From Bacteroidaceae bacterium (GTDB lineage: Bacteria; Bacteroidota; Bacteroidia; Bacteroidales; Bacteroidaceae): a stretch of DNA of 58,047 nt. The notes beneath the pieces were generated by a model. It was not told the DNA's origin and made no database searches. It saw only the letters and a list, made by a program, of their open reading frames with translations. Positions 15,725 through 24,773 of the stretch are shown here, piece by piece (position 1 is the first letter of the stretch; each line of letters starts with the position of its first letter). The position numbers and the translations under genes were made by a program. The stretch is taken from positions 1-58,047 of the forward strand of contig JAFUVZ010000012.1 of the NCBI GenBank assembly GCA_017471185.1, in the 5' to 3' direction.

Positions 15725-17473
15725 TCAACCATTCAGCAAACGAGCCAGCATGATGACAATCAAAACAATAAGGACAATGGCTATGGCAATGAATGCCAGC
15801 ATGTAGAACACCAGATTAATATAGGTCTTCGCAGTGAGTTTCATTGTGTCCCGCCAGCTGAGACGGAACAGTTGCCTGAAGTTGCGGAGCATAATCAGGA
15901 ACTCGGCGATGATGTTGATGGTGAAGCCATGGGTGGCCAAGCCTGGTTGGTCAGATCCGATGAAAGGCATGAGCACCATGTCCTTCATGATGAGCTGCGA
16001 GCCGAAATAGGCAAAGATAAAGGTGTATTCCCCTGTGTTGAGCCTCCTGTTCATGCGTGTGTGACGGAACGCCAGGCGAGTACTGATAATGTAAAAAGGT
16101 ATGACGATGATGAACGTCAACGCATGGTTGTCTTTCCAGTCCTCCATCAAATCCATTAGCGCATAGATGATGGTACCTGGAACTGAATGTTCACGATACC
16201 ATTGCTTGAGAGGTTCGAGGGAGTAATCATAGTCTTTCTCCTCTCCGCTATCTTTGTTACTTACGATTGAGTCTTGACTCAGAGAGAAGCCGTTGATTGA
16301 AAGCAGTACGGAATCTCCATTTTGTGATGGCAGGTCAACCGCCAGGGAGTCTGTTTTCGTCTCTGTTTTCGCAGGCTGTTCTTGTTTGTCTTTGTCAACA
16401 GAGCCAGGGTTGAACATATGACCAACCACGATGTAGATTGCCGCCATGAGGATGAGCAGGGAGAAAGGCTTGTAATATGGCTTACGCTTGCCTCTCACAT
16501 AATCGGCAACCATATAGCCGGGGCGGTACCACAGGTCGTGGATGGTATGCAGGAATCCGCTCTCGATGTTGAAGAACGACGAGAAGAATAGAGAAAGCGT
16601 GTTCTTGAGGGTGATGCGTTCTGTCTGGGCTGGCTGTCCGCAAGAGCGGCAGAAATCGCCCTCATACACGTCGCCGCAATTCTGGCAGATATGCTGTTCA
16701 ACCTTCGCTAACGGCTTGCTTTGTTTGCCTCTTATCTGTTTGATATTGAACGCCCTTCGCTTGATTTCCCATTGAGTTGGCAAGAATGGGGTGGTCTTGC
16801 CTGGAGTGTCTGCGTTCTTCATCAGAAGGGGCAACAGGGAGAGGTCGGGCAGTATCTGCCGGTTCGGATAAGCCGCCAGTTCGTCATAGGTAGTCAAGCC
16901 GTTGAGCACCCCGCAGAAGTCGATGCCGGCATTACGGGCAGTCTCTGCATCAACGGTACTGTCGCCCACGTAGAGTGCCAGCTCCTTGGTAGCCTTCAGC
17001 TTCTTGAGCGCGGCTTTCACGCCTTGCGGGTCAGGCTTGGCAGCTTTCACGTCCTCACCTCCGATAATCACATCAATGAACCCTTTGGGGAAATGCTTGT
17101 CGATGACAGCCTGGATGCGGTAGCGGTATTTGGTAGAGATAATGGCCAGCTTGGCGCCTTGCTCCTTCAGCTTGGTCAGTACGCTCACCGTTTCTGGAAA
17201 CAGCACCGTGTTGTCATTCATGTAGATGTCAGCTTCCTGCGTGTATTCCTTCTTCCAGGCAGCAAGCTGTGCTGTGTCATTGACACCTGTCAGCAGGGCG
17301 AAAGATTCCTCCAAGGTCTTGCCTATGGTGCGCTTGATCTGCAGTTCTGTCACCTCCGTGTAGCCGTGACGTTGCAACACATGGGTGAAGCACATCACGA
17401 TGCCTCGTGACGAGTTGGCCAGAGTAAGGTCAAAGTCAAACAGATAATAGATGTAATCTTTCGCTGCTGCCAT
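15725..17473 (-). CDS. HAD phosphatase fused to DUF3667 membrane domain
   Basis: A two-part protein of 582 residues. Residues 1-215 form a HAD-like hydrolase close to phosphoglycolate phosphatases, with FDFDLTLANSS (nucleophile Asp13, acid Asp15), the motif II region AIISTK, the lysine in AAKPDP and YVGDSTVDAETARNAG. From about 260 there is a zinc-ribbon CQNC...CRSC (Cys263, 266, 275, 278), then the DUF3667 region with RPGYMV, RGKRKPYYKPF and several membrane helices, the last at 555-580. DUF3667 function is unknown. The fusion is unbroken and no frameshift is visible. The minus-strand box TATCTTTG at 17505-17512 is a likely promoter. Confidence 0.88.
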   Translation of the reverse strand: MAAAKDYIYYLFDFDLTLANSSRGIVMCFTHVLQRHGYTEVTELQIKRTIGKTLEESFALLTGVNDTAQLAAWKKEYTQEADIYMNDNTVLFPETVSVLTKLKEQGAKLAIISTKYRYRIQAVIDKHFPKGFIDVIIGGEDVKAAKPDPQGVKAALKKLKATKELALYVGDSTVDAETARNAGIDFCGVLNGLTTYDELAAYPNRQILPDLSLLPLLMKNADTPGKTTPFLPTQWEIKRRAFNIKQIRGKQSKPLAKVEQHICQNCGDVYEGDFCRSCGQPAQTERITLKNTLSLFFSSFFNIESGFLHTIHDLWYRPGYMVADYVRGKRKPYYKPFSLLILMAAIYIVVGHMFNPGSVDKDKQEQPAKTETKTDSLAVDLPSQNGDSVLLSINGFSLSQDSIVSNKDSGEEKDYDYSLEPLKQWYREHSVPGTIIYALMDLMEDWKDNHALTFIIVIPFYIISTRLAFRHTRMNRRLNTGEYTFIFAYFGSQLIMKDMVLMPFIGSDQPGLATHGFTINIIAEFLIMLRNFRQLFRLSWRDTMKLTAKTYINLVFYMLAFIAIAIVLIVLIVIMLARLLNG

Positions 17474-17504
17474 CTTTCAAAACAAGATTTCGGTCATTTC
17501 GTTG

Positions 17505-17512
17505 CGTACAAA
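17505..17512 (-). promoter_or_regulatory. Promoter -7 box for the HAD-DUF3667 gene
   Basis: TATCTTTG on the minus strand, about 32 bases before the start codon. A second minus-strand TATCTTTG about 200 bases upstream (near 17707-17714) has no gene directly behind it and might start a longer leader or a small RNA. Confidence 0.5.
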
Positions 17513-17815
17513 GATACTGTTTTTTTTTAATACCGAAGCAGTAATCATACGGTGCTGACTGACTGCGATTTATGATTTGAACCGTACAAATGGAATTCAG
17601 GAAAATAGAATTATGCGATTCTCGTCCCTTTAGTCTATCAGCAGGTCTTCCACTGGACTCGCTCTTCGCTTAGAAGAGTATCATCATCTGTTCTGCACAT
17701 ATGCGGTGCAAAGATAACGAAAAATCACCAGATACATCATATTTTGGGCAAAAAAGTTGTTGGTATCGAAAATAATTCCCATCTTTGCACTGTCACTATA
17801 AAATGAGATAGAGAT

Positions 17816-18055
17816 ATTTCGGAAGTATTTAGATTCTTTGGATTCTCCTTCTTCTTTTACAGTAAGGAGCATGAGCCTGTCCACGTTCACGTTGAAGGGA
17901 ACGGTGGCATGGCTAAGTTCGTATGGAACGGAAGCGAGTTCACATTGCTTGTAAAGGAGAAGATAAAGGCAAATGACCTGAAGAAGATTAAGGCGGTCAT
18001 CGATGAGAATGCCGACCTGATTATCAAGCGTTGGGAGGAGCATTTTAATAGTTAA
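17816..18055 (+). CDS. DUF4160 protein with apparent ATT start
   Basis: A 79-residue frame that a normal ORF search misses because it has no ATG, GTG or TTG start. It reads SEVFRFFGFSFFFYSKEHEP, then VHVHVEGNGGMAKFVWNG and ends KRWEEHFNS. This is the whole DUF4160 domain, including the histidine cluster HEPVHVHV. An in-frame TGA lies four codons upstream, so translation must begin at ATT (17816) or the start codon has mutated. A promoter-like CATCTTTG lies at 17780-17787. The DUF2442 gene follows 16 bases later. Such DUF4160/DUF2442 pairs are common and are sometimes proposed as toxin-antitoxin-like modules; the function is unproven. Confidence 0.75.
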   Translation: MSEVFRFFGFSFFFYSKEHEPVHVHVEGNGGMAKFVWNGSEFTLLVKEKIKANDLKKIKAVIDENADLIIKRWEEHFNS

Positions 18056-18071
18056 CATAGGGGGATACGTT

Positions 18072-18479
18072 ATGAAGATTACAAAGATTTGGTTTAATAC
18101 TGATCATATATTCGGCAGAGACGAAGAGGGAAAGGAGTACAGCCAGTCGCTGATCTGGTACCCTAAGTTGAGGACAGCATCCGATGACGAACGTAGCCAA
18201 TACACCTTTGGCTATGACGGCATCCATTGGCGTAGTCTCGATGAAGACATCAGTTTTGAGAGCTTTGCTTATGAAGATTCAGAGCCATCAGCCCTTCAGC
18301 GTTTTTTTCTGACCCACAAGGAAATCAACGTGGCAGAGTTCGCCCGTTCTATTGGAATGAACGCCACACTACTGCGTAACTATATCAATGGCTTCAAGAA
18401 GTCTTCTGCTGAGAGGGAAAGTGAAATCCTTGCCCATATTCATAAACTGGGTAAGGAGATGATAGCTGCCTGCTTCTAA
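18072..18479 (+). CDS. DUF2442 protein with C-terminal helix-turn-helix
   Basis: A 135-residue protein. Residues 1-70 fit DUF2442 (KITKIWFNTDHIF, and YDGIHWRSLDEDISFE near 50-65). Residues 85-130 look like a helix-turn-helix DNA-binding segment (VAEFARSIGMNATLLRNYINGFKK). It is 16 bases downstream of the DUF4160 frame, so it is probably cotranscribed with it. The pairing of a small conserved domain with a DNA-binding partner fits an autoregulated two-gene module, but that is inference. A GACTATTTG hairpin terminator follows the next gene. Confidence 0.8.
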   Translation: MKITKIWFNTDHIFGRDEEGKEYSQSLIWYPKLRTASDDERSQYTFGYDGIHWRSLDEDISFESFAYEDSEPSALQRFFLTHKEINVAEFARSIGMNATLLRNYINGFKKSSAERESEILAHIHKLGKEMIAACF

Positions 18480-18591
18480 ACTAAAGGGAAAGAAAAACGA
18501 TGATGAACATTCAGCACCACACAGCCTCGTAATGTTTAATCGAGACGGCATGAGACAGCCATCTGTGTCGCCTCATAACATTTACGAGACA

Positions 18592-18840
18592 ATGAGTAGA
18601 AGTAGAAAGCGAATGCCAGTCAGCACATGGTGCTGCTGCAAGTCGCAAAAGAAAGGAAAGCAGGCGAGTAACCGCAAGTTCCGCCGTAAGGCACATGTGT
18701 TGTTACATCAGGGAAAGCATCATCTTCTTCCCTTGAAGTCCTTCGAGGTGATGAGTCCTTGGAATTTAGGTGGTGATGGAAAGCATTTCTGTGGCTTTCA
18801 TCCAGAAGAAGAGTGGTTCGTTAAGCTGATGAGAAAATGA
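18592..18840 (+). CDS. Small basic conserved protein, MSRSRKR type
   Basis: An 82-residue, strongly basic protein that begins MSRSRKRMPVSTWCCCKSQ and continues KASNRKFRRK-like. Short proteins with an MSRSYKKTP start and an N-x-x-x-R-R motif are widespread hypothetical proteins in Bacteroidota and their phages. The start at 18592 is chosen because the family begins there; the frame extends up to 18532. Several cysteines suggest a metal site. Function unknown. Confidence 0.6.
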   Translation: MSRSRKRMPVSTWCCCKSQKKGKQASNRKFRRKAHVLLHQGKHHLLPLKSFEVMSPWNLGGDGKHFCGFHPEEEWFVKLMRK

Positions 18841-18845
18841 GTTTC

Positions 18846-18885
18846 GACTATTTGGACATAAATGTATCAAATAGTCCCAATTTTT
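18846..18885 (+). terminator. Rho-independent terminator
   Basis: GACTATTTG at 18846-18854 pairs perfectly with CAAATAGTC at 18868-18876, followed by a T-rich run. It closes the transcript of the DUF4160/DUF2442/MSRSRKR group. Confidence 0.8.
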
Positions 18886-18900
18886 ACCTCTAATCATATT

Positions 18901-18937
18901 GAAACGGCATCATTTGGTGTCGTTTCTTTCATTTTTT
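18901..18937 (+). terminator. Second terminator hairpin
   Basis: GAAACGGCA pairs with TGTCGTTTC (one G-T pair) across an eight-base loop and is followed by TTTCATTTTTTT. It stands just before the promoter of the RNA at 18986. Confidence 0.75.
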
Positions 18938-18971
18938 TCCTTTTGTTGCTCAAAGTTCCGAGAAAAATGAC

Positions 18972-18979
18972 TATATTTG
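18972..18979 (+). promoter_or_regulatory. Promoter -7 box for the structured RNA
   Basis: TATATTTG is a full match to TAnnTTTG. TTTTGTTG about 22 bases upstream can serve as the -33 element. Transcription would begin near 18986. Confidence 0.7.
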
Positions 18980-18985
18980 CAGCGT

Positions 18986-19167
18986 GTTCTCGAAAGAGTG
19001 GCACAAAGACATAGGCTCTTACATCACCGAATCACCACCTCGAAGATAAAACGAGCCATATATCAAAAGCTATTAGAGCGTCGCGCCATGTGCGCAGACG
19101 TTTCTATGAAGCTTTTGAGGTTTGTGGTGAACCTTGGTGATGCGTAGAGATAGTCTGCGCATTTTTT
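18986..19167 (+). ncRNA. Structured RNA or leader with terminator
   Basis: About 180 bases with a coherent fold. P1: AAGAG (18994-18998) with CTCTT (19016-19020). P2: TCACC and TCACCAC (19024-19038) with GTGGTGA and GGTGA (19124-19140). Inside P2 are P3: CTCG (19039-19042) with CGAG (19052-19055), and P4: TCAAAAGCT (19063-19071) with AGCTTTTGA (19110-19118), topped by CGTCGCGC with GCGCaGACG (19079-19100). The 3' end has ATGCG with CGCAT followed by TTTTTT (19140-19167). TGCGCAGAC in P4 (19091-19099) is also perfectly complementary to GTCTGCGCA at 19153-19161, so a rival pairing with the terminator is possible. It could be a small RNA or a regulatory leader of the operon that starts at 19198. 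No known family is recognised. Confidence 0.65.
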
Positions 19168-19197
19168 CATGGTATTAACTTCAAAACTTATAGAGCT

Positions 19198-19740
19198 ATG
19201 AGCGAAATTGAAAAAAAAGAATTTGAAGAATTCTTAGAGTGGAAAAAAGAAAAGTCAAGTCAGACAGATAGCACTAGACCTGACAATCAAATCACCAATA
19301 ATGTTAGTTCAACATCAGTAGAAAATACCCAATCTTCTGGTTGTGGTTGGAAATCAGGCTGTGGCATAGGATGTCTAGGGGTCATTATTCTTTTTTTGAT
19401 TTTCGCTGCTATAGGAGGCAACTCTCAAAAGCAAGCCGGAAATGATGTTGTAGATTGGTCAGAAGCTTCTGTAATGTCTGAACAGTTTCTCAAAGACCTT
19501 ATGAAATATCCTGATGATGTTGAATTTATCAAAGAATCACGGAATGTTAGCGAAGAAGGAAACAAGGTCTTTAAGGTGACAGGACGTATGAAAGCAAATA
19601 ATTCATTCGGGCAGTCAGTTCCTTATACGTACAATATTAGGATTAAATATAATGGAGGCGACTGGTCATCTAAATATAACTGGTCAAGAGTTGGTGGTAA
19701 TCTTTATAATGAAGCGACTCAAGAGTTTACAGAGTTCTAA
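19198..19740 (+). CDS. Predicted single-pass membrane protein
   Basis: A 180-residue protein. A charged N-terminal helix (SEIEKKEFEEFLEWKKEKSS), a Ser/Thr/Asn-rich linker and a Cys/Gly stretch (GCGWKSGCGIGCLG) precede one membrane helix at about 62-76. A C-terminal domain of about 100 residues follows (FLKDLMKYPDDVEFIK, VFKVTGRMKANNSFG). The family is not recognised. It is the first gene after the structured RNA and is A+T richer than the core genes. The layout (cytoplasmic coil, membrane, soluble domain) suggests an envelope partner for the AAA+ protein downstream. Confidence 0.75.
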   Translation: MSEIEKKEFEEFLEWKKEKSSQTDSTRPDNQITNNVSSTSVENTQSSGCGWKSGCGIGCLGVIILFLIFAAIGGNSQKQAGNDVVDWSEASVMSEQFLKDLMKYPDDVEFIKESRNVSEEGNKVFKVTGRMKANNSFGQSVPYTYNIRIKYNGGDWSSKYNWSRVGGNLYNEATQEFTEF

Positions 19741-19782
19741 TTTAATGATTGTATCATAATTAGCAGCAGACATTCTGGAAAT

Positions 19783-20199
19783 ATGAAAAAAATTATATTT
19801 ATCCTCGTAACATTGGTGTCATTTATATCCGCAAGTGCACAAGAAGAAAAGATCATCGATATGAACAGAACCTTCAATATATCCGGCGAATGTATAATGT
19901 TCTCAAAGACACCGGTGCCGAAACGTGAAGATCTTTGCAACTTAACTTTTGAGTTTGCTAATAAGGTTTTGATAAATGAGAACTCCGTGACACTTAAATT
20001 GAAAGATGCAGACGGTCATGCCGTTGACTTCTATTCATGGAACGACGGTGTGCATATTATGCTTCTCATAGGCAAGGATGGGAACAAAATGTATACAGTA
20101 AGCGATGATACTTTCTCACACCTATGCATTATGGAGATAGAGAAGGGGAAATGGGGTATATCCGTATCATCTGAGTTAATTGATGAATGGGCTAAGTAA
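19783..20199 (+). CDS. Small exported protein
   Basis: A 138-residue protein with a clear signal peptide (KKIIFILVTLVSFISASAQ, likely cut after SAQ). The mature part is about 118 residues with alternating hydrophobic strands (NLTFEFANKVLINENSVTLKL and MYTVSDDTF) and two or three cysteines. No family is recognised. It lies 42 bases after the membrane-protein gene and 19 bases before the AAA+ gene, so it belongs to the same operon. Confidence 0.75.
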   Translation: MKKIIFILVTLVSFISASAQEEKIIDMNRTFNISGECIMFSKTPVPKREDLCNLTFEFANKVLINENSVTLKLKDADGHAVDFYSWNDGVHIMLLIGKDGNKMYTVSDDTFSHLCIMEIEKGKWGISVSSELIDEWAK

Positions 20200-20218
20200 T
20201 TATTCTTATTTTAGAGGT

Positions 20219-22435
20219 ATGGCTTGGAACTATCGTAAGAGAGTAAAAATCGCTCCAGGAGTTCATCTTAACTTCAGTAAAAGCGGAGTCAGTACGTCTA
20301 TTGGTCCCAAAGGTGCCAAAGTTACATTTGGAAAAAATGGCACGTATATGAGTACAAGTATACCTGGTACTGGACTATATAGTCGTCAAAAGATTAGTGG
20401 AAGTAAGAGTACATCCTCGAACAATGGTAATAGCATTGATCAAAATGGATGTTCAGGATGCATTATTGTAGGCGTTAGCCTCGGTTTGGTTATCCTTGGT
20501 GGTATCTGTGTAAGCACAGGAAACTCAATTGCAGTATTGATTGGCATTATCTTCATAGTTATTGCTATAATCATTTTTTACAAATCAATTATCGCTGTAA
20601 GCAATGAAGCTTCTTCAACTGAAGTTCCCACACAGATAATCGACAATGCATACAACGAAGATGTCGTAGAATCTCCTGATAGCCATCAGGACGTGCAACT
20701 AGAGAATCCTATTGTTGACGAGTCAAAGAAATTCCTTGGAATTTATGACCCATTATTTGAGGATGCCGCTAATTTAATTATTCGCGAACAAAGTGGTTCA
20801 ACAAGTCTCATTCAACGAAAATACTCCATTGGTTACAACCGAGCAGGTCTTATAATGGATCAATTAGAGAAGGTTGGCGTTGTAGGCCCTTCTCATGGTT
20901 CCATGCCTCGTGAAGTATTATTGCAAAGTGAAGATGATTGGCTAATACTTAAAAGCCAGTTGCTTACAAAACTTGCTAAACACAAATTGGAAGAGCCTTA
21001 TACAGAATCATCATCCATAGGCCTTACGGAAGGACGGTTTAATCTTATCAAATCTGCAAGTGACAATCTTTGCGCTTTTATGGTCAAAGTTGGGAGGAAA
21101 AAGAAAGTGAGAGCCAAACTGGATGAGATTTTACAACTTGAAAATAACGATGGTACTCCTTGGCCTGTAACAAAAAAAGTACAAATAGCGACTTTTGCTG
21201 ACATCTCTCGTTGCTATAATGGTTTGGGACATAATTTTTCTCTTGATGACGATGAAGAAAATATAGGCATCTACCTGTTCATGGGCAAATACCTTAAGCC
21301 TGATGTGGAAATATCATTCAATAATGTATCTCAATGCAAATATTCTCTTAAGGATTCCTTTTCAGGTGTATTGGAAACCTCGGACTTGCTCAATAAGAAC
21401 GCAAAAATGGCATCTAATGAGTTCTTCCTCCAAAAAGTTTTAGGTGAATGCGACAGAGAGCTTCAAACACAATACATGACTCTGATATATCGTTTCGCAT
21501 CTGCTGTTGCAAAGGCTGACGGTCAAGTTAGTGAAACAGAAGAGAAATGGCTTTCGGAAATTATGAAATCCCAAGAATCAAACATTGGGAATGGTTCAAA
21601 CGTGCGAACTACAACGAATCAGGAGCAAGGTGCTGTAGAATCTCCGTATGATATGCTTAACGACTTGATTGGGTTATCTTCTGTTAAAGATGAAATCACA
21701 AAACTGGCTAATTTTATAAAGATTCAGCAAGTACGAAAAAGTAAGGGGTTGAAGACTCCTGACATTTCTTACCATTGTGTTTTTACAGGAAATCCTGGCA
21801 CGGGAAAGACCACAGTTGCACGGATTATGGCAAGCATTTATAAGGATTTAGGAATATTAAAAAAAGGCCATTTGGTTGAAACGGATAGGTCTGGATTAGT
21901 GGCAGAGTACGTCGGGCAGACTGCTGTCAAAACTAACAAAATCATAGATTCAGCATTGGATGGTGTCTTGTTTATTGATGAAGCATATTCTCTAGTTCAG
22001 GGTGCCAAAGAGGATTTTGGACAAGAGGCCATATCTACTTTGCTTAAACGTATGGAAGATGATAGGAATCGACTTGTTGTAATACTGGCTGGTTATAGTA
22101 CAGAGATGAAAACATTTATAGATTCAAACCCTGGTTTACAATCACGCTTTAATCGATACATACACTTTTCAGACTACAATGCGGACGAATTGAAACAGAT
22201 ATTCCTTCTAAATGCGAAGAGAAATCAGTACTTTTTAGATAATGAAGCAATGATAAAACTTGAAAAGTTGATGTCTACTGCTATTGCCAACAAGGATAAA
22301 AATTTTGGAAATGCTCGCTTTGTGAGAAATCTATTTGAGAAATCTATCCAAAATCAGGCTATGCGTTTATCATCACAGCCAAATATTACAGAAGAAATCC
22401 TATCCACACTGATAGCTGAAGACTTCCCAGAATGA
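20219..22435 (+). CDS. DUF4236 / FtsK-gamma-like / TerB-like / AAA+ ATPase
   Basis: A 738-residue multidomain protein. Residues 1-55 are DUF4236 (AWNYRKRVKIAPGVHLNFSK, SIPGTGLYSR). Two membrane segments lie at about 78-125. Residues 177-234 match the FtsK gamma winged helix (DPLFEDAANLIIREQ, IGYNRAGLIMDQLE, PREVLL), the DNA-sequence reader of chromosome translocases. A TerB-like helical region ends near 455 (AVAKADGQVSETEEKWLSEI). Residues 490-738 form a CbbX/SpoVK-type AAA+ domain with Walker A GNPGTGKT at 524-531, Walker B VLFIDEA at 583-589, and the arginine stretch LQSRFNRYIHF. ATG at 20219 is chosen because DUF4236 begins MAW; the frame can extend to 20180. It appears to be a membrane-tethered ATPase with a DNA-binding module. 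Its function is not known. Confidence 0.85.
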   Translation: MAWNYRKRVKIAPGVHLNFSKSGVSTSIGPKGAKVTFGKNGTYMSTSIPGTGLYSRQKISGSKSTSSNNGNSIDQNGCSGCIIVGVSLGLVILGGICVSTGNSIAVLIGIIFIVIAIIIFYKSIIAVSNEASSTEVPTQIIDNAYNEDVVESPDSHQDVQLENPIVDESKKFLGIYDPLFEDAANLIIREQSGSTSLIQRKYSIGYNRAGLIMDQLEKVGVVGPSHGSMPREVLLQSEDDWLILKSQLLTKLAKHKLEEPYTESSSIGLTEGRFNLIKSASDNLCAFMVKVGRKKKVRAKLDEILQLENNDGTPWPVTKKVQIATFADISRCYNGLGHNFSLDDDEENIGIYLFMGKYLKPDVEISFNNVSQCKYSLKDSFSGVLETSDLLNKNAKMASNEFFLQKVLGECDRELQTQYMTLIYRFASAVAKADGQVSETEEKWLSEIMKSQESNIGNGSNVRTTTNQEQGAVESPYDMLNDLIGLSSVKDEITKLANFIKIQQVRKSKGLKTPDISYHCVFTGNPGTGKTTVARIMASIYKDLGILKKGHLVETDRSGLVAEYVGQTAVKTNKIIDSALDGVLFIDEAYSLVQGAKEDFGQEAISTLLKRMEDDRNRLVVILAGYSTEMKTFIDSNPGLQSRFNRYIHFSDYNADELKQIFLLNAKRNQYFLDNEAMIKLEKLMSTAIANKDKNFGNARFVRNLFEKSIQNQAMRLSSQPNITEEILSTLIAEDFPE

Positions 22436-22542
22436 TGAGCATCCAATGAAATTCATATTATTTGGGATAGTACAATTTAACTCAAAGCATCAATTAACGT
22501 AGTATAGACTATCTTAATGAAAAAATCAAAATTCTATTAAAT

Positions 22543-23052
22543 ATGAAACAGGTATTTTATTCTGTGAATTTGAAAAGTTTAGTTGTTGCCTTAGGGGTAA
22601 TGCTTGTAAGTATTACAGCCTCTGCTCAGAAATTTGAGACCCATAAAGTGGTTATGGCTGATAACGGAATTTCCACGAAATCTGTGAAAATCAAACCAGC
22701 CTCATTTTTCTCAGTCAAGAAAGATAATCGTATCAAGTGGATTACTATCGAAACAGACAACAAATCAATTACTATAAAAGCCATAGCGAACACAACGAAG
22801 AATAGCAGAAGTTGTGATCTTGTGTTGCTTGATGAAAATGGAAATGCGGTTGATACACTGAAAGTCGAGCAGAACGGGAAGATTTCAACATCTACTTTAA
22901 GCACAGCTTCAAGATTGACAGGAAGCTCAACAAGTAGGTCTGCTACAAAAAGCGTCTCAGGAGGGCAGTGTGCTGCAAGAACAAAAAAAGGTAGCCGCTG
23001 CTCCAGAAAAGCTACAGCTGGCAGTATTTATTGTTGGCAACATAATAAATAA
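22543..23052 (+). CDS. Exported protein with BACON-like and C-terminal Cys/His (DUF5763-like) domains
   Basis: A 169-residue protein with a signal peptide (LVVALGVMLVSITASAQ). Residues 30-112 resemble a BACON-like immunoglobulin fold ending VDTLKVEQNGK. After a Ser/Thr linker, the last 30 residues are a Cys-Cys-Cys-His motif (QCAARTKKGSRCSRKA, YCWQH) that resembles DUF5763 and is common in phage and mobile-element proteins. The pairing of an exported beta domain with this motif is unusual. It is 107 bases downstream of the AAA+ gene and may be cotranscribed. Confidence 0.75.
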   Translation: MKQVFYSVNLKSLVVALGVMLVSITASAQKFETHKVVMADNGISTKSVKIKPASFFSVKKDNRIKWITIETDNKSITIKAIANTTKNSRSCDLVLLDENGNAVDTLKVEQNGKISTSTLSTASRLTGSSTSRSATKSVSGGQCAARTKKGSRCSRKATAGSIYCWQHNK

Positions 23053-23066
23053 GCGGTTTTACAACA

Positions 23067-23537
23067 TTACCAGTCTTCAAGATTAGCTTTTGTCTCTTTA
23101 AGGGAATAATAGTCATTATGAGTTTTCTTTCCCTTTTGGATGCTGCCTAGCTTCTTATAGGATGGGGCATCATCGAAGAGTTTTTCAATGTCTCTCATTC
23201 TGATGATGGTCTTTCCCCGAAACTGCTTTGCCTGCAGTCCTTGTAGCCCAAGATAAATGTAGATAGTACTTCGGCAAACGCTAAGAAGCCTTGCTGCCTC
23301 TGCGGGAGAAAGAAACTGTTTGTCTTTCAGCGTGTCATTGAAGTGCTTCTTCTCATCAACTCTTCTTGAGAAAGTGCTCAAATCGATAGTGCTGTCGGGA
23401 GGTGTGCACTTGCCTGATTGCACATTTCTCTTGTACCTATAAGCCTGATTGCAACATTTACTGCTGCAAAACCTTGCTGTGACCATCTGACCAATGAAGG
23501 TTTTATGAAACCATTCGCATTTCTTAACTATTTCCAT
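23067..23537 (-). CDS. Excisionase-like helix-turn-helix protein with zinc-finger-like N-terminus
   Basis: A 156-residue protein. The N-terminal CEWFHKTFIGQMVTARFCSSKCC resembles a small zinc finger. Residues 72-130 are a MerR/excisionase-type helix-turn-helix (FLSPAEAARLLSVCRSTIYIYL, then GKTIIRMRDIEKLF). Such proteins sit beside tyrosine recombinases in Bacteroidota integrative elements and direct excision, but no recombinase is present here. Three phased TGTCCAA repeats lie directly upstream. It faces the AAA+ operon with a 14-base gap between stops. Confidence 0.82.
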   Translation of the reverse strand: MEIVKKCEWFHKTFIGQMVTARFCSSKCCNQAYRYKRNVQSGKCTPPDSTIDLSTFSRRVDEKKHFNDTLKDKQFLSPAEAARLLSVCRSTIYIYLGLQGLQAKQFRGKTIIRMRDIEKLFDDAPSYKKLGSIQKGKKTHNDYYSLKETKANLEDW

Positions 23538-23582
23538 ATGTCCTATTCTTGTATGTTATTATTCCTATTTTCTGTTTAACTC

Positions 23583-23609
23583 TGTCCAAGTCTGTCCAAA
23601 TGTGTCCAA
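23583..23609. promoter_or_regulatory. Three TGTCCAA repeats at 10-base spacing
   Basis: TGTCCAA occurs at 23583-23589, 23593-23599 and 23603-23609, exactly one DNA turn apart. Worn copies (GTGCCA) follow at 23612 and 23641. They lie upstream of the excisionase-like gene and could be its binding sites. Confidence 0.6.
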
Positions 23610-24213
23610 CGTGTGCCAGTCAGAGACATAGAGCGAGCATGTGCCAACGTTGGGATTTTCCCAAACGTACAAATAACGTATAAAAATGAGCGAATAAATA
23701 TCATCAACGATTAACGCTGATGATATGGAGAGTGTGGAGTTGCATGGAAATAAACGATTTAGTCATATCGAATAATATCGAATGATGACCGTTAATCGTA
23801 TTCTATTTTCCATACATATTATTATAAATTGTGCGTTCCATGGGGTCAGATTCAGACTAAATGGGTGATGAGCTGAATGAGAGGGAATAAGAAGGCAAAA
23901 TGTTACTGAGTGATTAATTTTACTCTGGGAACAAAATAGACCAAAATATTTGGTAGTTTCACAAAAACTCCAAAACTTTGGTACAGAAAATAAACTTAAT
24001 ATGCAAAATACACGGGTTAGTAGCTGAAAAGCTATCGAAAACATCCCGCTCGGGTGAGATATACCGAAGCACAAGCCTCCGAAAGGGGGCTTTATTCATA
24101 ACAATGAATATGGGAAAAGGAAAAAGAAAAAGTTGAAGTTAGGCTAAAGAATGGATACATCTTGCATAGACCTGATAATTGGAGGTGAATGTATGCAATA
24201 CATGTGTAATCAT
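23610..24213. other. A+T-rich intergenic stretch without a supported gene
   Basis: About 600 bases. The only long frame (minus strand, 23763-24074) has a composition unlike a real protein. A hairpin with AAGCCTCC-gaaa-GGGGGCTT followed by TATT at about 24074-24099 could terminate plus-strand transcripts. The palindrome-like TGTATGCAATACA lies at about 24192-24204. Confidence 0.6.
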
Positions 24214-24242
24214 AAAGGAGTAAGGCAATGCCTTACTCCTTA
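24214..24242. terminator. Bidirectional terminator
   Basis: A 12-base perfect stem, AAGGAGTAAGGC with GCCTTACTCCTT, around an AAT loop. It sits directly after the stop of the histidine phosphatase gene on the minus strand and closes the accessory region on its left. Confidence 0.85.
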
Positions 24243-24773
24243 TTATATCTCTATCTCAATGATTCCTCCGTAGGGCACCAGGGTGGTGAAGGCGGTGGCG
24301 AAGGTGGCTTGTCCGGCATAGACCTGGGCGCAGGCCAGTACGCCTCCGTGGGCAAAGATGGCCACACGCTGATAAGGTTGTTGGCGAAGCTCGTCGAGGA
24401 ACTGACTGACACGCTGGTATTGCATCACGAATGACTCGCCATGAGGAGTGGGGGTATGGATGTAATCCTTGTACCATTCATCGATAACGGGGTCTTTGAT
24501 TTCGTCATAAAGCTGCATCTCCCAATCTCCCATGTTCATTTCCAACAGCCGTTTGTCGGGCTCGGCATCTGGATAACCGCAGAAGGTGGCGAGTTTGACG
24601 GCTCGCGTGAGCGGACTGCAATAGACTTTGTCGAAAGGACGGTGTGCCTCCAGATTTTCATTCACCTGGGTTGCTTCCTGGGGGAATGATGCCTTGACTG
24701 CCACATCGGTCTGTCCGTAGCAGATGCCTGGAGGAACATTAACTGAAGTATGGCGTATAAGTGTAATTTTCAT
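24243..24773 (-). CDS. Histidine phosphatase family protein (CobC-like)
   Basis: A phosphoglycerate-mutase-fold phosphatase of 176 residues. The catalytic loop is LIRHTSV (phospho-histidine in RHT rather than the usual RHG), followed by GICYGQTDV, CSPLTRA, the acid region LLEMNMGDWE and the second histidine in FAHGG. This pattern, with RHT and YGQTD, is that of alpha-ribazole phosphatases (CobC) of cobalamin assembly. No other cobalamin gene is nearby, so the substrate is left open. Confidence 0.85.
   Translation of the reverse strand: MKITLIRHTSVNVPPGICYGQTDVAVKASFPQEATQVNENLEAHRPFDKVYCSPLTRAVKLATFCGYPDAEPDKRLLEMNMGDWEMQLYDEIKDPVIDEWYKDYIHTPTPHGESFVMQYQRVSQFLDELRQQPYQRVAIFAHGGVLACAQVYAGQATFATAFTTLVPYGGIIEIEI

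Follow-up and report, generated by a model that had tools for sequence, protein, structure and literature searches.

An AAA+ protein with DUF4236 and FtsK gamma domains

We analysed a 58,047-nucleotide stretch of DNA from a Bacteroidaceae bacterium (positions 1 to 58,047 of contig JAFUVZ010000012.1, assembly GCA_017471185.1), referred to here as the window, and in particular a gene within it, P0001, whose product combines a AAA+ ATPase with a winged helix of the FtsK gamma type. In an earlier reading of the sequence (the original prediction) P0001 and its neighbours P0002, P0003 and P0004 were taken to form one envelope-anchored system that can contact DNA, and the open reading frames (ORFs) do lie at the positions and on the strands given there. 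P0001 has the following features.

20180 to 22435, + strand: P0001 ORF, opening at TTG 20180, likely start ATG 20219
20219 to 22435, + strand: P0001 coding part, 738 amino acids; DUF4236, transmembrane hairpin, FtsK gamma, TerB-like region, AAA+
20225 to 20386, + strand: DUF4236 (Pfam, 2.2e-23), five predicted beta strands
20447 to 20605, + strand: membrane hairpin, predicted helices at residues 77-98 and 103-129
20744 to 20923, + strand: FtsK gamma winged helix (Pfam, 1.9e-24; PDB matches 2j5o, 2ve8, 2j5p and 5dcf)
20816 to 20818, + strand: Arg200 codon, site of E. coli FtsK Arg1289 (salt bridge to XerD Glu184)
20849 to 20851, + strand: Leu211 codon, site, in alignments, of E. coli FtsK Arg1300 (reading of FtsK orienting polar sequences, KOPS)
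21029 to 21595, + strand: TerB-like region, all-helical
21656 to 22432, + strand: AAA+ domain with lid, Walker A at 21788 to 21811

The start at ATG 20219 is preferred because it matches the start of DUF4236 in the relatives L103, L109 and L066. Consistent with the original prediction, P0001 scored 83 bits against DUF4236 (PF14020; Pfam gathering cut-off 27), 85.6 bits against FtsK_gamma (PF09397; cut-off 30.6), 69 bits against AAA (cut-off 21.2) and 72.8 bits against AAA_lid_6 (cut-off 24.3), and the proposed membrane segments reappeared as a predicted helical hairpin. The TerB-like region stood as an all-helical stretch, but its score against TerB, 14.8 bits, lies under the Pfam cut-off of 24.4. 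Residues 1-76 include 11 Lys or Arg and one Asp or Glu, and a cytoplasmic location of DUF4236 fits because the domain is positively charged. The gamma domain of P0001 is 69% identical over 65 residues to that of the host's own FtsK. Unlike FtsK, P0001 carries a AAA+ motor of another type and a DUF4236 anchor in place of the N-terminal membrane domain; the FtsK_SpoIIIE motor (PF01580) was not among the 19 Pfam families that P0001 matched at E <= 1. This combination of domains is far beyond chance, and we found no description of it in the passages searched of the open-licence literature.

The motor and the SpoVK/CbbX/EccA clade

The Walker A (GNPGTGKT) and Walker B (LFIDEA) motifs are intact, as had been predicted for a CbbX/SpoVK-type motor, and are invariant across an alignment of P0001 and 21 relatives. 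The motor also has a pore loop (EYVG), a GY sensor 1 (VILAGY) and a GNAR sensor 2 (FGNAR); both sensors and the pore-loop YVG can be aligned with CbbX or EccA1. Among the NCBIfam families P0001 matched SpoVK (1.5e-90), EccA (8.5e-79) and CbbX (1.9e-68), and its top Foldseek match was CbbX (43% identity). Note that the scores fall below all three equivalog cut-offs (302.8 against 422.95 bits for SpoVK, 265.6 against 466.65 for EccA and 230.8 against 459.25 for CbbX), so that P0001 does not qualify as SpoVK, CbbX or EccA proper. A preprint (PMC10659427) gives as the signature of the clade a GY tyrosine in sensor 1 and a sensor-2 Arg. A further criterion for the clade is an Asn that precedes the first Arg finger by four residues. 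P0001 contains the stretch NPGLQSR, in which the Asn is present (Asn637), the residue four positions on is Gln and an invariant Arg stands six positions on.

Judged by its Walker motifs, AAA_lid_6 and the two sensors, the motor of P0001 belongs to the SpoVK/CbbX/EccA clade. PMC10659427 portrays the members of this clade as dedicated chaperones that may use variable N-terminal domains to recruit a narrow target, and the characterised members each serve such a target. P0001 shares with them the AAA+ core, the Walker motifs, the aromatic pore loop, the GY of sensor 1, the sensor-2 Arg, AAA_lid_6 and the variability of the N-terminal region; it differs in adding DUF4236, the membrane hairpin, gamma and the TerB-like region, and neither TerB nor FtsK_gamma nor DUF4236 appears in the main text of PMC10659427. 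CbbX draws in a peptide tail via Tyr/Ile/Gly pore loops (PMC5385338), and the counterpart in P0001 is Tyr-Val-Gly. P0001 is a rare but recurrent architecture within a known AAA+ chaperone clade.

Gamma residues at the KOPS and XerD sites

In E. coli FtsK, R1300, E1303 and E1306 contribute to KOPS reading; in the variants R1300A and E1303A this reading is defective, though some recognition remains, and XerCD-dif recombination is still fully supported (PMC2680272). Contacts with XerD are made by Q1288, R1289, R1292, I1293, G1294 and N1296 (Table 1 of PMC5052618). R1289 and XerD E184 form the key salt bridge, and residues 1289-1297 alone can stimulate recombination (PMC5052618). We compared 31 gamma domains bearing the GYN motif, with identical ones counted once: 22 of the ordinary FtsK type and nine others (five joined to AAA+, three DUF4236-gamma proteins and one DUF4236-FtsK protein). 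Three degenerate gamma-like domains without GYN (L041, L044 and L062) stand outside this count.

Q1288, R1289, I1293, N1296 and R1297 are kept in all 31 domains. The window gamma keeps five of the six XerD-contact residues (Q1288, R1289, I1293, G1294 and N1296); the sixth, R1292, is Ser, the same as in the host FtsK. At R1300, E1303 and E1306 the window has Leu, Asp and Glu, against Arg, Asp and Glu in the host FtsK. Because Asp occupies the E1303 position in 30 of the 31 domains (Val in L206), that difference is lineage-wide. R1300 is Arg in 29 of the 31, including all 22 of the FtsK type, L103, L066, L067, L206 and the three prophage-like DUF4236-gamma proteins; the exceptions are the window (Leu) and L109 (Lys). 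With the XerD-contact residues kept and R1300 lost, the window gamma resembles a natural KOPS-impaired, Xer-competent gamma, and the proposal that the winged helix reads polar DNA sequences is weakened for the window copy.

Gamma and AAA+ in relatives of P0001

P0001 had matches at 1e-30 in 111 of 301 genomes of the family, mostly to the AAA domain, and at 1e-45 in 47 of 158 genomes of the genus. None of the genus matches was full length, nor was any beyond the window among the family matches listed, the longest of which covered residues 250-736 at 54% identity. When 84,980 species genomes were scanned, at least 591 stretches and at least 567 relatives were returned, and the best 80 of the 567 were analysed with hidden Markov models (HMMs) built from hits of the same analysis. 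These 80 loci held 82 AAA-bearing ORFs: 63 with a single AAA domain, eight with two, one with three, six with the order TerB-like-AAA and two with DUF4236-TerB-AAA, as well as two with gamma, L103 and L109. L103 from Chryseobacterium koreense has the domain order of the window, DUF4236-gamma-TerB-AAA, and L109 has DUF4236-TerB-gamma-AAA. Outside these 80 loci, L066 has the order of L109, and L006/L067 has gamma and AAA only. Gamma thus accompanies a AAA+ motor of the P0001 type in five proteins and three domain orders. (A protein with a transmembrane segment, TerB and AAA, without gamma, lies among ordinary metabolic neighbours in a Bacteroides finegoldii plasmid record, NZ_OY725927.1, L071 8752-10422.)

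On a tree built with care from 43 AAA+ domains gamma needs five changes, and a single clade for the five gamma-AAA proteins was rejected (approximately unbiased test, p-AU 0.00117). An earlier quick tree of 59 rows needed four changes; AAA-only rows had been thinned ahead of both trees. Gamma therefore seems, on these trees, to have been joined to AAA+ more than once.

DUF4236 and gamma outside the AAA+ fusion

DUF4236 is rare, occurring at 14 places in 13 of 247 genomes of the order. All 13 places outside the window were fetched. DUF4236 is fused to TerB-AAA at four of the 14 (the window, L223, L224 and L226), and an HMM built in the analysis found gamma in the window only; L229 had a weak Pfam gamma match (0.015), below the cut-off. 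In L206 (601-2757) DUF4236 and a membrane segment replace the N-terminal membrane domain of an FtsK protein, with alpha, motor (PF01580) and gamma kept; a gamma of the ordinary FtsK type was matched in this genome as well. No protein with DUF4236 and gamma in one frame was found beyond the window region among the matches listed for 242 genomes of the phylum, searched with the N-terminal part of L103 at 1e-12.

DUF4236, a transmembrane segment and gamma also follow one another, in the order of the window, in L064 (4960-6216), L065 (608-1810) and L207 (7349-8617), which lack the AAA+ motor and have a weak TPR-like C-terminus. (The domains of L064 and L065 were assigned with Pfam, those of L207 with HMMs built in the analysis and visual inspection.) These genes lie directly 3' of repressor-like genes (a gap of 16, an overlap of 1 and a gap of 16 nucleotides, respectively); the repressors next to L064 and L065 have matches among the PHROGs for phage repressors or regulators, and that of L207 has a weak Peptidase_S24 match (0.1). 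A place just after the repressor gene is typical of lysogenic accessory genes, and by eye the three loci look like prophages. In L041, L044 and L062, DUF4236-transmembrane proteins of about 265 residues, the gamma-like winged helix has lost GYNRA. Gamma is used outside FtsK in phages too: residues 129-240 of P0001 match phrog_13700, a 'moron' family, at 8e-19, and PMC8190038 records lone gamma genes and a fusion of gamma to a small terminase, of unclear role, whereas in P0001 gamma is combined with a membrane anchor and a AAA+ chaperone.

Genes adjoining the motor in relatives

We read nine DUF4236-AAA loci (the window, L066, L102, L103, L109, L116, L223, L224 and L226). Two kinds of gene recur beside the motor.

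L223 4224-4955; L109 5247-5996; L066 5107-5865: voltage-gated-type potassium channel genes
L223 3703-4227; L224 3601-4116; L226 4044-4565: small helical genes, about 172 residues, conserved

The Ion_trans-type channel gene abuts the AAA gene with gaps of 2, 4 and 14 nucleotides in L223, L109 and L066, respectively; the assignment is by Pfam Ion_trans for L109 and L066 and by homology for L223, and all three have what we take, by eye, to be a TVGYGD-like filter. The small helical gene lies upstream of DUF4236-AAA, with the channel gene between them in L223. Relatives of the small gene occur in five of 237 genomes of the order, the query's own included, and three of the five adjoin a DUF4236-AAA gene. 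The other two have weak TerB matches (5.3e-4 and 0.024, below the cut-off), with no AAA or DUF4236 gene within the 12-14 kb fetched. Both partner genes are absent from the window. (Note that their absence at L102 and L103 means little, because contig ends cut close on one side.)

The AT-rich stretch around P0001

19001 to 24000: AT-rich stretch, 36-39% GC per kb against 41-52% in all other 1-kb steps of the window
19198 to 19740, + strand: P0002, 180-amino-acid single-pass membrane protein, within the AT-rich stretch
19783 to 20199, + strand: P0003, 138 amino acids, hydrophobic N-terminus, probably exported
22543 to 23052, + strand: P0004, 169 amino acids, hydrophobic N-terminus, weak BACON match, C-terminal Cys/His motif
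23067 to 23537, - strand: P0005, HTH_17/excisionase-like, convergent to the P0001 side

P0002, P0003, P0001, P0004 and P0005 all lie in the AT-rich stretch, where gene GC is 0.365-0.418 against 0.475 for the rest. The first four are on one strand, separated by 42, 19 and 107 nucleotides, and may be co-transcribed. Several claims made for this region held in part. Terminator-like sites on the + strand do flank the genes (18901 and 19139 upstream, 24215 downstream), but seven such sites were observed in 17000-24500 against 4.7 expected by chance. P0004, described as exported and BACON-like, has the hydrophobic N-terminus and the Cys/His motif, but scored 24.0 bits against BACON (Pfam cut-off 25) and 16.3 against DUF5763 (cut-off 26.3). 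The proposed excisionase, P0005, matched phrog_66 (5.1e-5) and HTH_17, the latter with 26.7 bits, just under the Pfam cut-off of 27. As for a role in element maintenance, the base composition makes an element origin of the stretch plausible, but no integrase was found among 19 window proteins searched with Pfam and no direct repeats bracketing the stretch were found. The fetched relatives do not share the gene order around the stretch, so insertion is likely, though not proven. Ten flanking proteins are, by Pfam, enzymes of sugar and uronate catabolism together with other proteins of metabolism or regulation. (A DUF2442 protein with a possible helix-turn-helix lies just upstream of the stretch, at 18072-18479.)

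Among 158 genomes of the same genus (its own included, E <= 1e-4), P0002 has, outside the window, two relatives with 34 and 36% identity, P0004 has one (30%) and P0003 has none. In 272 fetched loci single-sequence phmmer searches (E <= 0.001) with P0002-P0005 found only copies of the window region and these three remote relatives, whose neighbours are unrelated (short flanks, judged by eye). P0002, P0003 and P0004 were beside a related ATPase in none of the 272; flanks are limited to 1.5 kb in many of these loci, and the eight DUF4236-AAA loci outside the window span 7-15 kb. The original prediction would be refuted if its genes were never together elsewhere, and in the genomes and loci searched they never were. 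The claim of one operon or system thus finds no support in these loci, and P0002, P0003 and P0004 share the AT-rich stretch with P0001 as neighbours, but are not proven to belong to a system with it.

A defence role had also been suggested. In PADLOC, P0001 resembles IetA in the general AAA+ core only (4.8e-9); it scored 22.5 bits against the NCBIfam anti-phage ATPase (cut-off 510), and no protease partner was matched among P0002-P0005. We therefore did not assign P0001 to IetA/IetS defence. At E <= 1 PADLOC gave no match for P0002, P0003 or P0005, and for P0004 only PDC-S11 (0.014). In eight relative loci, 59 neighbouring ORFs matched 22 PADLOC families with one member each, some strongly, including SoFic, PglZ, pVip and several candidate (PDC) families; PADLOC gives these hits by family and not by ORF. 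The 39 other ORFs of the window gave seven single hits and no coherent system. Scattered in this way, the hits lend the suggestion no coherent support; they neither show nor exclude a defence role.

A possible docking role for gamma

We propose, tentatively and with a confidence that falls just short of even, that P0001 is a membrane-tethered AAA+ remodeller whose gamma serves as a docking module for a partner of FtsK and not as a KOPS reader. P0001 would probably be a hexameric chaperone or remodeller of the SpoVK/CbbX/EccA clade, tethered by DUF4236 and the helical hairpin to the inner face of the cytoplasmic membrane. Its N-terminal modules, gamma and the helical region, would select the substrate, and the motor would pull it via the aromatic pore loop. 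In the window copy gamma, captured from an FtsK-type protein, would be the recruiting module and would dock on one of FtsK's protein partners, with a Xer recombinase at dif-like sites as the most specific candidate. Docking on a Xer recombinase, as a step by itself, is doubtful.

Several observations weigh against this proposal. The full-length relatives L102, L116, L223, L224 and L226 do without gamma, so the domain is dispensable for the core, and because many inner branches of the trees are weakly supported, the changes counted on them should not be taken as an exact tally of captures. In E. coli R1292 is responsible for several of the XerD contacts (PMC5052618), but the residue is Ser in the window, and the 22 FtsK-type gammas have Ser or Ala. 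At the sites of XerD E183 and E184 the best XerD match of the host (L270, over the NCBIfam cut-off) has Gln and Arg, and a second host Xer (L271) has Thr and Glu (positions counted by hand on alignments). The salt bridge is therefore not conserved in L270, the contact face of the host Xers is only partly conserved, and the E. coli contact is not directly transferable. The XerD surface of gamma overlaps its DNA surface (PMC5052618), so the kept residues, being also part of the DNA-binding surface, are no proof of Xer docking. Finally, a structure model of P0001 (22-row alignment) gave gamma a predicted local distance difference test score (pLDDT) of about 30-48.

The core of DUF4236, TerB and AAA might instead be a membrane stress or ion-homeostasis chaperone for the potassium channel and the small TerB-like protein, with gamma and the other N-terminal modules added later and only tuning its location. 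The channel gene abutting the AAA gene in three of nine loci, the small gene preceding it in three of nine and the three of five small-gene relatives that adjoin DUF4236-AAA all favour this account, which we nevertheless consider unlikely, if not markedly so, since the window has neither partner gene and the repeated capture of gamma suggests that gamma matters. Slightly less probable, in our judgement, is that gamma arrived by chance shuffling and is inert or purely structural here, binding neither DNA nor Xer; the helices of L041, L044 and L062 that lack GYNRA and the full-length relatives without gamma would agree with this, but all five gamma-AAA proteins retain an unbroken Gln-Arg and Ile-Gly-Tyr-Asn-Arg signature, and the domain shares 69% identity with the gamma of the host FtsK.

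Gamma could also read polar, KOPS-like sequences of the host and so place the motor on chromosomal DNA. It is a true FtsK_gamma domain by Pfam, R1300 is kept in L103, L066, L067, L206 and the three prophage-like proteins, and E. coli R1300A leaves residual recognition; however, R1300A alone impairs KOPS recognition (PMC2680272), the window has Leu and L109 has Lys at this site, and the motor is of a protein-chaperone clade with no FtsK_SpoIIIE domain matched, which makes this reading very unlikely. We hold as most improbable that the four genes P0001-P0004 make up a single envelope-anchored system for defence or element maintenance: they share the AT-rich stretch, one strand, short gaps and an upstream terminator-like site, but the neighbours were not found with the ATPase in anything searched, and PADLOC gave only an IetA-like AAA core and scattered single hits.

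A broader form of the docking proposal, in which islands and prophage-like elements of Bacteroidota repeatedly mount gamma on a DUF4236 anchor, with or without a AAA+ motor, and so capture Xer, with P0001 as a KOPS-blind Xer-docking membrane machine, seems to us quite unlikely. If true, the window machine would act on chromosome-dimer resolution or on dif-using elements, independently of FtsK translocation.

These findings tie an orphan domain, DUF4236, which a single paper in the literature searched mentions, and the unexplained lone gammas of phages to a defined clade of AAA+ chaperones, and the potassium-channel and small-gene partners in relatives offer a separate handle on the role of the family. 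The window gamma is a natural case of a domain that may have separated Xer docking from KOPS reading, and, if the proposal is right, a second motor, bound to the membrane, could control Xer recombination alongside FtsK.

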